Shown: piece after piece, positions 2-30,417 of the stretch
How positions within the stretch are numbered: position 1 is the stretch's first letter
Layout of the letters: the number at the start of each line of letters is the position of its first letter
DNA from: Geodermatophilus obscurus DSM 43160
Lineage (GTDB): Bacteria > Actinomycetota > Actinomycetes > Mycobacteriales > Geodermatophilaceae
Direction of reading: 5' to 3'
Length of the DNA: 64,000 nucleotides
NCBI RefSeq assembly: GCF_000025345.1
Contig: NC_013757.1
Span: 2,294,001 to 2,358,000 of the forward strand
The notes under the pieces: model-generated
Databases searched by the model: none
Told to the model about the DNA's origin: nothing
The model's input: only the letters and a program-made list of their open reading frames with translations
Program-made: the position numbers and the translations under genes

Positions 2-85
2 GGGTGGGCTCGGGTACGCGCGCGGCACGACCCGGAGGGGCACGTCGCGGCGCTGCAGGAGGTCTATCGGCGTGTCGCGCGGTGA
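2..85 (+). CDS. C-terminal end of an upstream gene (partial)
   Basis: The window opens inside an open frame that reads GWARVRARHDPEGHVAALQE and ends VYRRVAR before a TGA at 83-85. Second codon positions are mixed and third positions G/C-rich, as expected for coding sequence; the other two frames are not. The ending resembles the last helix of GT4 glycosyltransferases (HVAAL..VYRR), which would fit the glycosyltransferase island that follows at 2.2-7.5 kb, but 27 residues are too few to be sure. The start lies outside the window. Confidence 0.45.
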   Translation, partial: GWARVRARHDPEGHVAALQEVYRRVAR

Positions 86-27084: not shown

Positions 27085-27684
27085 GTGGGCAAGCACCGGG
27101 CATCTGACGCTGACCCCACCGACTTCGACGCCGCCACCAGCGCGCTCGTCGACGTCACCGGGGACTACGAGGTCGACGTCGCGCACACGCGCATCGGGAT
27201 CCGTGCCCGGCACGCCATGGTGACCACCGTGCGCGGGTCGTTCGGCGACTTCGCCGGGACGGCGCACCTCGACGTCGCCGATCCGGCGGCCAGCTCGGTG
27301 GCGCTGCGCATCCAGACGGCCAGCATCGACACCGGCCAGGCCGACCGCGACGCGCACCTGCGCTCCGCGGACTTCCTCGACGTGGAGACGTACCCCGAGA
27401 TCGTCTTCGTCTCCACCGACGTGGAGCAGGTCGACGAGGAGACCTACACGGTCACCGGTGACCTCACCATCCGGGAGACCACCCGTCCGGTGTCGGTCGA
27501 CTTCACGCTGACCGGCTCGGCGAAGGACCCGTTCGGCAACACCCGGGTCGGCTTCGAGGGCGCGCTGGCGATCAAGCGCAGCGACTGGGGGCTGACCTGG
27601 AACACGCCCCTGGACACCGGCGGCGTGCTGGTCAGCGACCGCATCCAGATCGAGTTCGACGTCTCCGCCGTCCGCGTCTCCTGA
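27085..27684 (+). CDS. YceI family lipocalin-like protein
   Basis: A 199-residue YceI-domain protein. After a hydrophilic N-terminus comes GDYEVDVAHTRIGIRARHAM, the YceI opening, then VRGSFGDFAGTAHLD, SIDTGQADRDAHLRSADFLD and YPEIVFVSTDVEQ, followed by TVTGDLTIRETTRPVSVDFT. The family forms a lipocalin-like barrel that binds isoprenoid-type lipids. No signal peptide is visible, unlike proteobacterial YceI. GTG 27085 has GGGGGAGGAGGG upstream. The 215 bp before it show no gene. Confidence 0.9.
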   Translation: MGKHRASDADPTDFDAATSALVDVTGDYEVDVAHTRIGIRARHAMVTTVRGSFGDFAGTAHLDVADPAASSVALRIQTASIDTGQADRDAHLRSADFLDVETYPEIVFVSTDVEQVDEETYTVTGDLTIRETTRPVSVDFTLTGSAKDPFGNTRVGFEGALAIKRSDWGLTWNTPLDTGGVLVSDRIQIEFDVSAVRVS

Positions 27685-27687
27685 GGC

Positions 27688-27710
27688 GGGGACCCCTCGC
27701 AGCGGGGCCC
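27688..27710. terminator. Short hairpin between convergent YceI and cysteine dioxygenase genes
   Basis: GGG-(GA)-CCCC, loop TCGCAGC, GGGG-CCC: a 7-bp stem with a 2-nt bulge filling the 26-bp gap. The TCGCAG loop matches the core of the gene-terminal repeats, of which this may be a minimal form. Confidence 0.4.
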
Positions 27711-28214
27711 TCACCAGTCGGCGCCGGCCTCCTCGGTGCCGGTGTGCACCAGCACCCGGCCGTCGACGCGGTAGGTGTTCATGACGGTCAGCCGCGGCGT
27801 GTGGACGTGCACGCTCACCGCCGCGTGCGTGCCGGTGCTGGACACCTGGTGCACGTGGTGCGGGCCGAAGTGGCGCACCCGTCCGGCGGAGAGCTCGGCG
27901 GTTCCCTCCCGGGCGCCCACCCGCTCGTGCAGCGTGCCGCGGACGACGGCGAAGGCGCCGGCCGAGCCGCCGTGGTCGTTCAGGCCGGTGCCCTGTCCGG
28001 GCAGCCAGGACAGCAGCCACACCTGGGCGTGCGACAGGTCCTCGTGCAGGGACGGGTCGAGGGCGTCGGCGGCGGCGTCGCGGGGGAGCAGGGCGGGCCG
28101 GCAGGACGGGAGCGCCGTTAGCGACAGGCGGCGGACCAGACCCGGCCGAGGTCGACGTGCACGCGCCCGGACCAGCCGCGGCAGCGCGGCGGGGACGGTC
28201 GGGACGGCGGGCAC
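27711..28214 (-). CDS. Cysteine dioxygenase family cupin
   Basis: A 167-residue cupin of the cysteine dioxygenase type, which oxidises cysteine to cysteine sulfinate with a mononuclear iron. The segment LLSWLPGQGTGLNDHGGSAG corresponds to cupin motif 1, but the usual HxH reads NDH, so one iron ligand is Asn. Motif 2, VRHFGPHHVHQVSSTG, keeps its His. The C-terminal TPRLTVMNTY matches actinobacterial members. GTG 28214 lies 7 nt after TAGGCA, suggesting a leaderless mRNA. It is divergent from an orphan SAM-IV riboswitch 65 bp away, so sulfur status may affect both. Confidence 0.8.
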   Translation of the reverse strand: MPAVPTVPAALPRLVRARARRPRPGLVRRLSLTALPSCRPALLPRDAAADALDPSLHEDLSHAQVWLLSWLPGQGTGLNDHGGSAGAFAVVRGTLHERVGAREGTAELSAGRVRHFGPHHVHQVSSTGTHAAVSVHVHTPRLTVMNTYRVDGRVLVHTGTEEAGADW

Positions 28215-28221
28215 GGGTCAA

Positions 28222-28227
28222 TGCCTA
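28222..28227 (-). promoter_or_regulatory. -10 box TAGGCA, probable leaderless start of the cysteine dioxygenase gene
   Basis: TAGGCA (minus) - 7 nt - GTG 28214. The last base deviates from TANNNT. Confidence 0.45.
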
Positions 28228-28242
28228 CCACGTCGATCGGGT

Positions 28243-28272
28243 TTGACGGGATTCGGAGCGGCGTGCCAGGCT
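28243..28272 (+). promoter_or_regulatory. Promoter of the SAM-IV riboswitch transcript
   Basis: TTGACG (28243-28248), an 18-bp spacer and CAGGCT (28267-28272) fit a vegetative -35/-10 pair. The expected start, about 7 nt on, coincides with the first base of the riboswitch. Confidence 0.6.
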
Positions 28273-28278
28273 CCCGGC

Positions 28279-28356
28279 GGTCACGAGCGCCAGCGCGGAG
28301 CCCCGGCTCGCTGGCCGGCAACCCTGCTCCGCGATGGGGTGCCCCGGGTGACGACC
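28279..28356 (+). promoter_or_regulatory. SAM-IV riboswitch (orphan, plus strand)
   Basis: The plus-strand sequence follows the actinobacterial SAM-IV aptamer as I know it: GGTCACGAGCGCCAGCG, the CCCCGGCTCGCTGGCCGG arm, GGCAACCC, CTCCGCGATGGGGTGCCCC and the closing GGGTGACGACC. GGTC (28279-28282) pairs with GACC (28353-28356) as P1, and CCCGGCT/GCTGGCCGGCAA gives the internal arm. Such aptamers normally precede methionine or SAM genes. Here the only downstream gene within 1 kb is on the opposite strand, so the transcript runs antisense into the beta-propeller gene at 28439. A GAGGAGG-GTG site at 28419-28432 follows but opens no credible protein. Confidence 0.8.
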
Positions 28357-28438
28357 TGGCGGGCGCCGACCGGTGCCGGCAAGCGCGGGCTCCGGGTAGG
28401 CGGGCGGGCCCCGGACGCGAGGAGGCCCCGTGCCGCGG

Positions 28439-29365
28439 TCAGCCGTCGAGCAGCACCGTGCGCAGCTCGTGCGCGCCGTCGGCCCGGGTGGCCTCGTAGA
28501 ACCAGCGGGCACCGCCTCCCGGCAGCGGCACGACGTCGGCGTAGCGCAGCCCGTGCGGCGGGTGCGGGCTCTGCAGCAGCGGCCCGTCGCCGACCGTGGC
28601 GAACCGGCCGTCGCCGACGGCCGTGGCCAGCCCGGTGCGCTCCTCCCAGTTCTCCCCGGCCGCGGCGCGCCCGTCGTACAGGGCCCAGGTCCGGTCGCCG
28701 TCCAGGACCACGGTGGCGAACCGGACGCCGCGGGCGTCCCAGCTCCCCGGCGTGCCAGCCAGCGCGGTACCGCGCCACGTCCACGCGATCCCGTCCGGGC
28801 TGGTGGCGTGCTCGGTCGTCATCCGGTCGGTCGCGTCCGGGTCGTCGAGCGGGTGGACCGAGGCCCACAGGTTCCACTGCCGCCCGTCGTGCCGGACGAC
28901 CGGGTCCTTGACCCCCTCGGCGGCGCTGCCCGGCAGCACGGTCCGCGGCTCCGCCGTGGCGAGCTCCTCCACGGTGGCCGCCTCCAGCAGGTCGACCCGC
29001 CAGTGCTTCGTGCCCGGGGTCGCGCAGCTGACGTAGAGCCGCCAGCGGCCCTCGGGCGTGTGCACCAGCGCCGGGCGCTCGAGCGACTCGGCGCCGAACC
29101 GGTCCTTGCCGACCGCCACCACCGGGGCGAACCGCACCCCGTCGTCGGACCGCGACACCACGTTGGCGAACCCACGGCCCTCGCCGACCGGGCGGCGCAG
29201 CCGGGCGGCCAGCCACCACGTCCCGTCGACCAGCTGCGCCGAGGGGCCACCGGCCCAGGAGCCCGGCCGCGGGTCCTCGGGCTCCAGCACCACCGCGGCG
29301 TCGGCCCAGAAGCGGTCGGCGACCGGGGGACGGACCAGGGACGTCGGGGCGGGGTGGCTGGGCAC
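28439..29365 (-). CDS. Five-bladed beta-propeller protein, glycosyl hydrolase 43/32/68-superfamily-like
   Basis: A 308-residue protein with repeated propeller blades: FWADAAVVLEPEDPRPGSWA, GTWWLAARLRRPVGEGRGF, LERPALVHTPEGRWRLYVSC, VKDPVVRHDGRQWNLWASVH, TTEHATSPDGIAWTWRGTAL and RTWALYDGRAAAGENWEERT. Acidic residues at D(PE/PV) positions of blades 1 and 4 and the Glu of blade 5 recall GH43-type catalytic sites, but I cannot assign activity. No signal peptide. GTG 29365 has GGAG 8 nt upstream; GTG 29416 is a longer alternative. Its 3' half is covered by antisense RNA from the SAM-IV promoter if that transcript reads through. Confidence 0.75.
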   Translation of the reverse strand: MPSHPAPTSLVRPPVADRFWADAAVVLEPEDPRPGSWAGGPSAQLVDGTWWLAARLRRPVGEGRGFANVVSRSDDGVRFAPVVAVGKDRFGAESLERPALVHTPEGRWRLYVSCATPGTKHWRVDLLEAATVEELATAEPRTVLPGSAAEGVKDPVVRHDGRQWNLWASVHPLDDPDATDRMTTEHATSPDGIAWTWRGTALAGTPGSWDARGVRFATVVLDGDRTWALYDGRAAAGENWEERTGLATAVGDGRFATVGDGPLLQSPHPPHGLRYADVVPLPGGGARWFYEATRADGAHELRTVLLDG

Positions 29366-29433
29366 GCGGCGGCTCCACGGTCGACCGGAGGGGACGCCGC
29401 CCAGTCTGCACAGCACCGAGGAGGAACCACCCC

Positions 29434-30417
29434 GTGACCGGACGCCTGCCCCAGTTCGTCATCGCCGGCGCCCCCAAGGCCGGGACGACGGCGCTGCACG
29501 CCGCGCTGGCCACCCACCCCGGCCTGTACCTCTCGCCGGTCAAGGAGCCGAAGCACTACCTGACCGACGGCCGCCCGCCGCCCCGGTCGCAGCAGCGCGG
29601 GCCCGGCGACGCGCACAGCGCCCGGGAGTGGGTCTGGCGGCGGCAGGACTACCTCGCGCTGTTCGCCGCCGCGCCGGAGGAGGCCGTCCGCGGCGAGAGC
29701 ACGCCGTTCTACCTCTACGACCGCGCGGCCCAGGCCCGGCTGGCCGCCGACGTCCCGGACGTGAAGGTCGTCGCCGTCGTCCGGGACCCGGTGGACCGCG
29801 CCTGGTCCAACTGGGTGCACCTGCGCGCCGACGGCCTGGAGCCCGAGGCCGACTTCCCGACCGCCGTCCGGCTGGAGGAGCGGCGGGTGGTCGACGGGTG
29901 GGCGCCGTTCTGGCACTACCGGGGACTTGGCCGCTACGGCGAGCAGCTGCGCGACCTGTACCGGCACGTGCCCCGGGAGCAGGTCCTGCTGCTGCGCTAC
30001 CGCCAGGTGGTGGACAGCCCGCGGGAGACCCTCGACCGGGTCAGCGCCTTCCTCGGCGTGGCGCCCGGCGTCGCGCACGCCGTCCCCCCGGAGAACGTCA
30101 AGCCGTACGTCGCCGACGGGGCGCGGTACCGCGCGCTGTCCCGGCTGGTCCGCGCCGGCGCGGCCCTGGGCGCGTACGCCCCGCCGCAGGTGTGGCGGCA
30201 GGTGAGCCGCCCGCTGGTCGCCGCGCTGCACGCCGGGCGGGCGTCCCGGCCGCCGATGCCGGTCGAGGTCCGCCGCGAGGTGCTCGAGCCGCTGCTGCCC
30301 GACATCGAGCTGCTCGAGGAGCTGACCGGTGAGTCCTTCGAAGACTGGAAGGGCGACACCGGGCGCGGTGACTTCCGCTCCCGGTCGGCCCGCAGCACGC
30401 AGCGCGAGGTCCGGTGA
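29434..30417 (+). CDS. PAPS-dependent sulfotransferase
   Basis: A 327-residue sulfotransferase that moves sulfate from PAPS to a hydroxyl or amine. It starts [20 protein letters not shown] with the 5'-phosphosulfate loop (PKAGTT), then [19 protein letters not shown] and the 3'-phosphate motif [17 protein letters not shown]. The GAPKAGTT..L...L.HP layout is that of heparan-sulfate-type and bacterial carbohydrate/lipid sulfotransferases. GTG 29434 has GAGGAGG about 9 nt upstream. The stop overlaps chrA (GTGA). The acceptor is unknown; a surface glycan or lipid is plausible. Confidence 0.9.

Follow-up and report, generated by a model that had tools for sequence, protein, structure and literature searches.

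The window, a stretch of 64,000 nucleotides from the Geodermatophilus obscurus DSM 43160 genome (positions 2294001-2358000 of a single contig of 5.32 Mb), carries a complete SAM-IV riboswitch aptamer behind which the next plus-strand gene, as called by a simple gene finder, begins at 29434, 1,043 nt on. The Rfam covariance model of SAM-IV (RF00634) matches positions 28279-28391 of the plus strand over its complete length (model positions 1-116) with 92.6 bits and an E value of 1.8e-15, the gathering score of the model being 38 bits; besides SAM-IV, comparison of the 64-kb window with Rfam gave no second match at or above gathering score. A chance match is rejected by this score and by the homologous copies at the same place in relatives. 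The element is a true SAM-IV riboswitch, and as an aptamer it is ordinary. A genome-wide search found two SAM-IVs in this genome, the second upstream of metY at a distance of 43 nt (O-acetylhomoserine/O-acetylserine sulfhydrylase, with 813 bits for NF005872). At the same place as the first, G. poikilotrophus (G011), G. siccatus (G017) and G. africanus (G001) also carry the aptamer alone: here, as in the window genome (G000), the class V aminotransferase gene that follows the leader in other relatives, which we call F17, is absent together with a reductase and a monooxygenase gene. These four are referred to below as the orphans. The features of the locus, in window coordinates, are:

27711..28214, minus strand: cysteine dioxygenase gene F2, the divergent neighbour (Pfam CDO_I 38.6 bits, residues 64-148)
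28118..28231, minus strand: leader-peptide-like ORF upstream of the dioxygenase, ending in VHVDLGRVWSAACR and a stop (coordinates worked out by hand)
28243..28248, plus strand: -35 element TTGACG, read from the sequence, within the conserved box ACCANNNCGATCGGGTTTGACG (28227-28248)
28267..28272, plus strand: putative -10 element CAGGCT, spacer 18 (computed position; not a consensus sigma-70 hexamer)
28279..28391, plus strand: complete SAM-IV riboswitch aptamer
28329..28332, plus strand: 5' strand CCGC of pseudoknot PK-2, pairing with 28385-28388 (four pairs, invariant in the four orphans)
28359..28380, plus strand: hairpin P5, the last in the Rfam model (in the orphans both partners are changed in two pairs, and unpaired cells occur in two)
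28385..28388, plus strand: 3' strand GCGG of PK-2, from the structure string of the model alignment
28419..28425, plus strand: ribosome-binding site GAGGAGG, remnant of the lost gene, at the same place as the F17 site in relatives (GAGGAG unchanged in all four orphans)
28430..28432, plus strand: GTG, by its position the presumed start codon of the lost aminotransferase gene (unchanged in all four orphans)
28433..28438, plus strand: deletion junction CCGCGG, directly before the convergent stop (the same in all four orphans)
28439..29365, minus strand: convergent beta-propeller gene F1 (gene call), whose stop adjoins the deletion junction and which would receive antisense transcription
29434..30417, plus strand: sulfotransferase gene F0, the first plus-strand gene after the aptamer (Sulfotransfer_3 61.1 bits)

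The aptamer, its expression signals and its neighbours

The SAM-IV fold consists of helices P1, P2a/b, P3 and P5 and the pseudoknots PK-1 and PK-2, and the residues of the SAM pocket are 2-4, 7-8, 63-65 and 77 in SAM-IV numbering (PMC6890682). The window aptamer forms the Rfam consensus helices (P1-P3 and P5) and the PK-2 pairing, except for one mismatch in P3 and one in P5, and the PK-1 strands CCCGG and CCGGG are found by direct reading of the sequence. Alignment columns 1-5, 7-17 and 58-78, in our own column numbers and not those of the Mycobacterium RNA, are identical in all four orphans and should cover the region of the pocket residues.

Much of what the earlier note on this DNA had described is borne out. 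Its SAM-IV-like aptamer is confirmed by the covariance model, as is the start at 28279; the end that it gave, 28356, was too short, as P5 and the 3' strand of PK-2 reach to about 28388. The GAGGAGG-GTG site is present, and no plus-strand gene follows for 1 kb, both as it had stated. The cysteine dioxygenase and the sulfotransferase that it named on either side are supported by the Pfam matches above, and its sulfur theme fits the dioxygenase and the lost cassette; the beta-propeller gene itself resembles a glycosidase. The -35/-10 pair that it called good is good for TTGACG; CAGGCT is poor by a simple sigma-70 consensus, yet its form recurs in other copies. TTGACG stands upstream of the aptamer in all four orphans and in 18 of 24 F17-linked copies (23 with the gene called, and G105 (L180) assigned by its start sequence alone), and the combination TTGACG-16..19-CANNCT in 4 of 4 and 16 of 24, respectively. 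A simple sigma-70 consensus scan of 27600-29600 returned no promoter-like site. From the placement of the -10 element we infer a transcription start near 28279.

The -35 element is overlapped by the box ACCANNNCGATCGGGTTTGACG (28227-28248, plus strand), which has a CGATCG core and, by eye, resembles the letters before many F17-linked SAM-IVs. It has one exact match in the whole genome and three others with three mismatches (reversed control, 0); a wide regulon was rejected on these counts, and the box may be the operator of a sulfur regulator.

Behind the aptamer, the orphans retain what a regulated gene would need. F17-linked copies have their ribosome-binding site 19-29 nt behind the aptamer, and the gene starts 30-40 nt after it in 21 of 23 called gene-linked copies, the GTG of the window lying at 38 nt; the upstream DNA, ribosome-binding site and start codon of the orphans align with their F17-linked counterparts. 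Because no terminator-like site was seen behind the window aptamer in 27600-29600, and because of this position of the ribosome-binding site in gene-linked copies, translational control is the likely mode. A plus-strand ORF of 335 aa runs from 28430 antisense through the beta-propeller gene. We rejected it as coding and regard it as an effect of codon usage, since the same in-register antisense frame of F1 is stop-free in 17 of 18 homologues, most of them with neither a SAM-IV nor a remnant seen there.

F1 itself found no match in Pfam, nor among solved structures by sequence search. Its predicted structure (AlphaFold, mean pLDDT 87.1) is an all-beta propeller, for which the top Foldseek hits are glycosidases (best E value 5e-11). 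On this model F1 looks like a GH43/GH130-type glycosidase, with no evident link to SAM or methionine and no evident need for control by SAM. F1 and the sulfotransferase gene are divergent, with a spacer of 68 nt between them, and the pair (28439-30417) is adjacent in 18 of 18 loci in which F1 is called, an adjacency that points to a shared role, perhaps on a sulfated sugar.

On the other side, the true start of the dioxygenase probably lies further inside than the called one. The counterpart in G. poikilotrophus of the leader ORF upstream of it scores 23.0 bits against the cis_reg_atten model NF042934 (cut-off 27, thus below it). Compared with G. poikilotrophus, the window species has the 5' part of this ORF in another frame, and the conserved 3' part is readable from other starts. 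Three genomes without SAM-IV at this place (G002, G006 and G008) have a different peptide there, ending in LTRRSAVDLLRVASALCPA[AG] and a stop, with 31.2 bits to the same model (cut-off 27).

The lost aminotransferase gene and the deletion

Gene order around F1 was compared in the window and 20 fetched stretches, a set of 21 of which 18 have a called F1. G014 and G003 both begin with the dioxygenase, the FMN reductase and a luciferase-like monooxygenase; SAM-IV and F17 follow on the opposite strand, and behind them come F1, convergent with F17, and the sulfotransferase. F17 encodes a class V aminotransferase of about 455 aa; in relatives it stands behind the same leader and converges on the same F1. 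The G014 protein scores 278 bits with Aminotran_5 and 285 bits with SufS, below the NCBIfam cut-off of 475; by these scores it is nearest to SufS and would be a SufS-like PLP enzyme. The genes beside it resemble alkanesulfonate monooxygenase and FMN reductase genes, both below the NCBIfam cut-offs. G013 has the same cassette with F17, and its F1 is reduced to a 75-residue piece; in G007 and G024 the cassette lies elsewhere, away from F1. SAM-IV, F17 and a convergent F1 also occur together in Trujillonella (L076), Blastococcus URHD0036 (L078) and a Modestobacter MAG (L079). As the stops of F17 and F1 are 2-20 nt apart in five F17-bearing loci (G014, 5; G003, 2; L076, 20; L078, 5; L079, 8 nt), the convergent layout predates the gene loss. 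F17 orthologs of at least 76% identity are found in 5 of 26 genus genomes (G003, G007, G013, G014 and G024). A search of the four orphan genomes for F17 gave no close ortholog; outside the five genomes just named, the best full-length match has 49% identity, and that in the window genome 40%, while a short match of 109 residues in G. africanus has 53%.

The junction reads GTGCCGCGG/TCA in each of the four orphans, the leader ending right at the F1 stop. A single deletion in an ancestor of the locus would have extended from just after the F17 start codon to the F1 stop and would have left the promoter, the aptamer, the ribosome-binding site and the start codon in place, a descent to which synteny and the common junction both point. 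That the SAM-IV of the window is by descent a relic leader, and not that of a methionine gene, is strongly supported. One explanation in the earlier note had been a relic leader whose methionine gene was lost: the loss stands, but the gene was the SufS-like aminotransferase, and where a met gene was sought at this position in relatives the SAM-IV leader precedes F17 instead. A lost methionine gene is thus rejected, metY having its own SAM-IV elsewhere in the genome.

The four orphans form one clade in the F1 tree (100/99), in which G. siccatus and G. africanus are sisters, unlike in the rpoB tree (25 of the 26 genus genomes, G021 being without a match). Because the two trees disagree on the branching of the orphans, dating was done locally with neighbouring genes. 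In the 100 nt of F1 beside the junction, the six orphan pairs differ by 4-9 nt, and the junction was therefore not recently shared among them. Between YceI and chrA, three further genomes (G009, G023 and G005) have none of the dioxygenase, SAM-IV, F1 and sulfotransferase. In the rpoB tree the orphan species have G009 and G023 in their midst (fork 90/88), and G005 branches just outside, so from this position the block would have been lost in G009 and G023 or moved between species. A DNA search with window positions 28200-28450 in five block-less genus mates, run without a positive control, gave no match.

Loss of F17 is also seen elsewhere in the family. We collected 88 SAM-IV loci, a selection made up of the genus hits (a few of metY type left out), L077 and mainly high-scoring non-metY hits among the matches listed of a 112-genome family search; 23 lie before a called F17, 16 before metY, and seven face the propeller gene F1 with no F17 called between, which the other 81 do not. 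In L077 (Blastococcus CPCC 205250), 420 nt separate the aptamer from F1, and in G091, 153 nt, both stretches beginning like F17; in G123 (L082, a Modestobacter MAG) 62 nt remain, with ten letters like the F17 start in L079. At the same place in G. sabuli (G015), a stretch equals the G014 aptamer at 82 of 113 positions compared, and the Rfam SAM-IV model does not report it at E values up to 1. No SAM-IV remnant was recognized by eye in the F2-F1 spacers (approximately 220-280 bp) of nine SAM-IV-less genomes, nor was a SAM-IV reported at E values up to 1 in that spacer of G. amargosae (L069). A different outcome is seen in L182 (G108), where no F17 follows the aptamer and an OsmC-family gene (Pfam 52.4 bits) begins 37 nt behind it. 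That gene is 91% identical to the gene after F17 in G028 (Klenkia brasiliensis, with the same genus label as G108), and it is possible that the leader passed to the next gene after loss of F17, a retargeting.

Sequence constraint on the orphan aptamers

The four orphans differ at 12 of the 113 aptamer columns, against 342 of 1020 fourfold sites (33.5%; p = 1e-7) of five neighbouring gene families; this comparison and those that follow were chosen after seeing the data, use four sequences and take columns as independent, though of the changed columns 86 pairs with 97 and 87 with 96. The same families have 298 variable sites out of 3,420 at first and second codon positions. The 78 positions that are invariant in the 24 F17-linked aptamers include three that are variable in the orphans (3.8%; p = 6e-10 against fourfold sites), and the other 35 include nine, like fourfold sites (p = 0.37). 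That the 12 orphan changes avoid the invariant positions (three seen, 8.3 expected; p = 0.0012) is a clock-independent result, and with laxer invariance cut-offs four changes were seen (p = 0.003 and 0.001). Changes affect two of 50 paired and one of 28 unpaired invariant positions (p = 3e-4 for the unpaired).

The surrounding DNA gives the scale for these values. Intergenic DNA differs by 13-28% between orphan pairs: the pairwise difference is 0.035 in the aptamer versus 0.126 in intergenic DNA for G. obscurus and G. poikilotrophus, and 0.018 versus 0.199 for G. siccatus and G. africanus. In the spacer behind the aptamer 13 of 42 columns are variable; none of these is among the nine of the ribosome-binding site and GTG, compared with 13 of the remaining 33 (p = 0.038), and with the six junction letters added 0 of 15 columns vary (p = 0.001). 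The G. sabuli relic differs at 31 of 113 sites; invariant positions account for 18 of these differences against an expectation of 21.4 (P = 0.094), which amounts to near-random decay.

Pairs outside P5 are kept in all four orphans, except one that none of them forms. In P5, two pairs vary in a way that compensation would produce, one being U-A, C-G or C-A and the other G-C, G-U or A-U; covariation among the four orphans is not above that of shuffles (132 of 500 reach it), a level that four rows could hardly exceed. A G-G mismatch in P5 is found in three of the orphans and, by eye, also in the gene-linked L076 and L078, and G. africanus has a C-A mismatch. A hairpin overlapping the PK-2 strand occurs, by our reading of the folds, in 23 of the 24 F17-linked copies; it is kept in G. 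siccatus and G. africanus and refolded in G. obscurus and G. poikilotrophus, the two species that carry most of the orphan changes. The four orphans score 101.4, 100.2, 92.6 and 90.8 bits with the SAM-IV model, the window copy being third. Because the aptamer was conserved after the gene had gone, retained function is favoured, and a near-unchanged switch in four related species suggests that it still does something.

Possible present role of the orphan, and SAM-IV leaders elsewhere in the family

The reading that we consider probable, though well short of secure, is that of an orphaned SAM-IV, the leader of F17 until one deletion removed that gene, which is still under selection and is probably still transcribed and SAM-binding. 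After the loss the aptamer would not have drifted freely, its changes avoiding positions that gene-linked aptamers keep. A SAM-binding leader RNA would start near 28279, and SAM would set the access to the leftover ribosome-binding site and GTG and thereby the reach of the RNA into F1 antisense. Taken by its parts, and judged from sequence comparison, retained function is likely and a specific antisense role on F1 possible, with plain slow decay as the main rival. A SAM-controlled antisense or small RNA, the second explanation in the earlier note, is a possibility.

Slow decay would mean a functionless leader that is intact because too little time has passed or because the stretch mutates slowly, which we regard as somewhat unlikely. 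Its descent from a lost gene is clear, stages of loss are found elsewhere (420, 153 and 62 nt left in L077, G091 and G123, and the decayed aptamer of G. sabuli), and some antisense riboswitches beside pseudogenes have been judged fortuitous (PMC9943018); but fourfold sites vary at 33.5% and intergenic pairs differ by 13-28% where F17-invariant aptamer positions vary at 3.8%, the adjoining spacer is variable at 13 of 42 columns, and near-random decay is visible in G. sabuli. It is rather doubtful that the orphan is a SAM-gated antisense RNA directed against the convergent F1, as in the ubiG case of Clostridium acetobutylicum. The orientation and the 47 nt to the F1 stop are suitable, the element falls within the published definition of antisense and within 500 nt (PMC9943018), and promoter, aptamer, ribosome-binding site and start are retained. 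Weighing against such a role, 27600-29600 holds no terminator-type platform, although a translational one is possible, the GH43/GH130-like propeller has no evident SAM or methionine link, and the convergent layout was inherited from the time of F17. An improbable but explicit form of antisense control is that a translational riboswitch became, through the deletion, an antisense switch gated by SAM, in which ribosomes give shelter from Rho. At low SAM, ribosomes would load at the retained ribosome-binding site and GTG, translate the stop-free antisense frame of F1 and shield the RNA from Rho, giving a long antisense RNA over F1; with SAM present, no ribosome would load and Rho would end the RNA early. 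The retained ribosome-binding site, start and aptamer would then be the trace of selection on an antisense regulator.

Two readings place the target elsewhere. There is a slim chance that the element is a long-range leader that regulates both the sulfotransferase and chrA, its RNA running antisense through F1 to reach them: the two genes are on the plus strand, the first 1,043 nt downstream, and F1 and the sulfotransferase stay together in all 18 loci with F1 called, but the 68-nt spacer between them can hold a promoter of its own, and the pair is kept in species without a SAM-IV there. A very slim chance attaches to a minus-strand element, either the 3' UTR or terminator of F1 or a DNA site of the dioxygenase promoter. 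The stretch adjoins the F1 stop on its 3' side and precedes the dioxygenase leader of the minus strand, and read on that strand the C-A mismatch of G. africanus would become a G-U pair; against this, one of 28 unpaired invariant positions is changed (p = 3e-4), as expected for a ligand-binding plus-strand RNA, and no such element was recognized by eye behind F1 in SAM-IV-less species.

The orphan agrees with known SAM-IV riboswitches (RF00634) in its full model match, in P1-P3, P5 and the PK-2 pairing, and in the columns expected to hold the pocket, which are unchanged in all four orphans; it differs in having no gene behind it, SAM-IV usually being the leader of a sulfur or methionine gene. 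C. acetobutylicum is known to have antisense SAM riboswitches, and in a survey 56 SAM riboswitches were antisense and 8,039 sense (PMC9943018). The ubiG element is likewise a SAM aptamer 3' of a convergent gene and transcribed antisense to it, but it is of the S-box class, with a terminator, and belongs to a methionine-to-cysteine operon, whereas in the window copy no terminator was seen and the facing gene is glycosidase-like. The SAM riboswitches SreA and SreB of Listeria monocytogenes act in trans (PMC8079631) and offer a parallel, a SAM-sensing RNA that may exist independently as a small RNA; SreA, however, still has its operon in cis, and the cis gene of the Geodermatophilus orphan is gone. 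Comparable, too, are the antisense riboswitches beside pseudogenes, which the authors call fortuitous and which also gained a wrong-way neighbour by accident of gene decay (PMC9943018). There the facing gene is the pseudogene, whereas here the gene of the riboswitch itself was lost, and several species show both the junction and the subsequent constraint on the aptamer. In the literature on riboswitches left by gene loss we recognized no report as this case, which is no proof of absence from print. What is unusual is not the aptamer but the traceable survival of a SAM-IV without its gene.

Orphan riboswitches are easily dismissed as annotation gaps or taken for antisense regulators. Here, several genera document the loss of the regulated gene at different stages, among them one older loss after which the aptamer is still constrained. 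If the orphan works, it would show a cis leader becoming a free-standing or antisense RNA sensor, and under the antisense-switch reading one clean deletion would have converted a leader into an antisense regulator. If it is inactive, it offers a measured case of riboswitch persistence after gene loss and a warning for lists of predicted antisense riboswitches.

As a separate observation, 25 of the 88 collected SAM-IVs have an ORF of 30-42 codons within 36 nt that ends in GRPxVDLxRTDSALCR, RRHIDLQLVTSALCP or close to these, followed by a stop, the pattern having been narrow at first (4 of 88) and widened after the peptides had been seen; in controls shifted by 400, 800 and 1100 nt the wide pattern found 0 of 88 each. 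Examples among Geodermatophilaceae loci are L193, L196, L202, L205, L215, L217 and L223, and three of the leader peptides matched NCBIfam cis_reg_atten models below cut-off. A SAM-IV placed on a conserved leader peptide would constitute a two-step leader. G. sabuli (G015; loci L005, L025 and L224) has four SAM-IV matches, one of which precedes metF (MTHFR, 305.7 bits), and two further ones look to precede metE-like genes.
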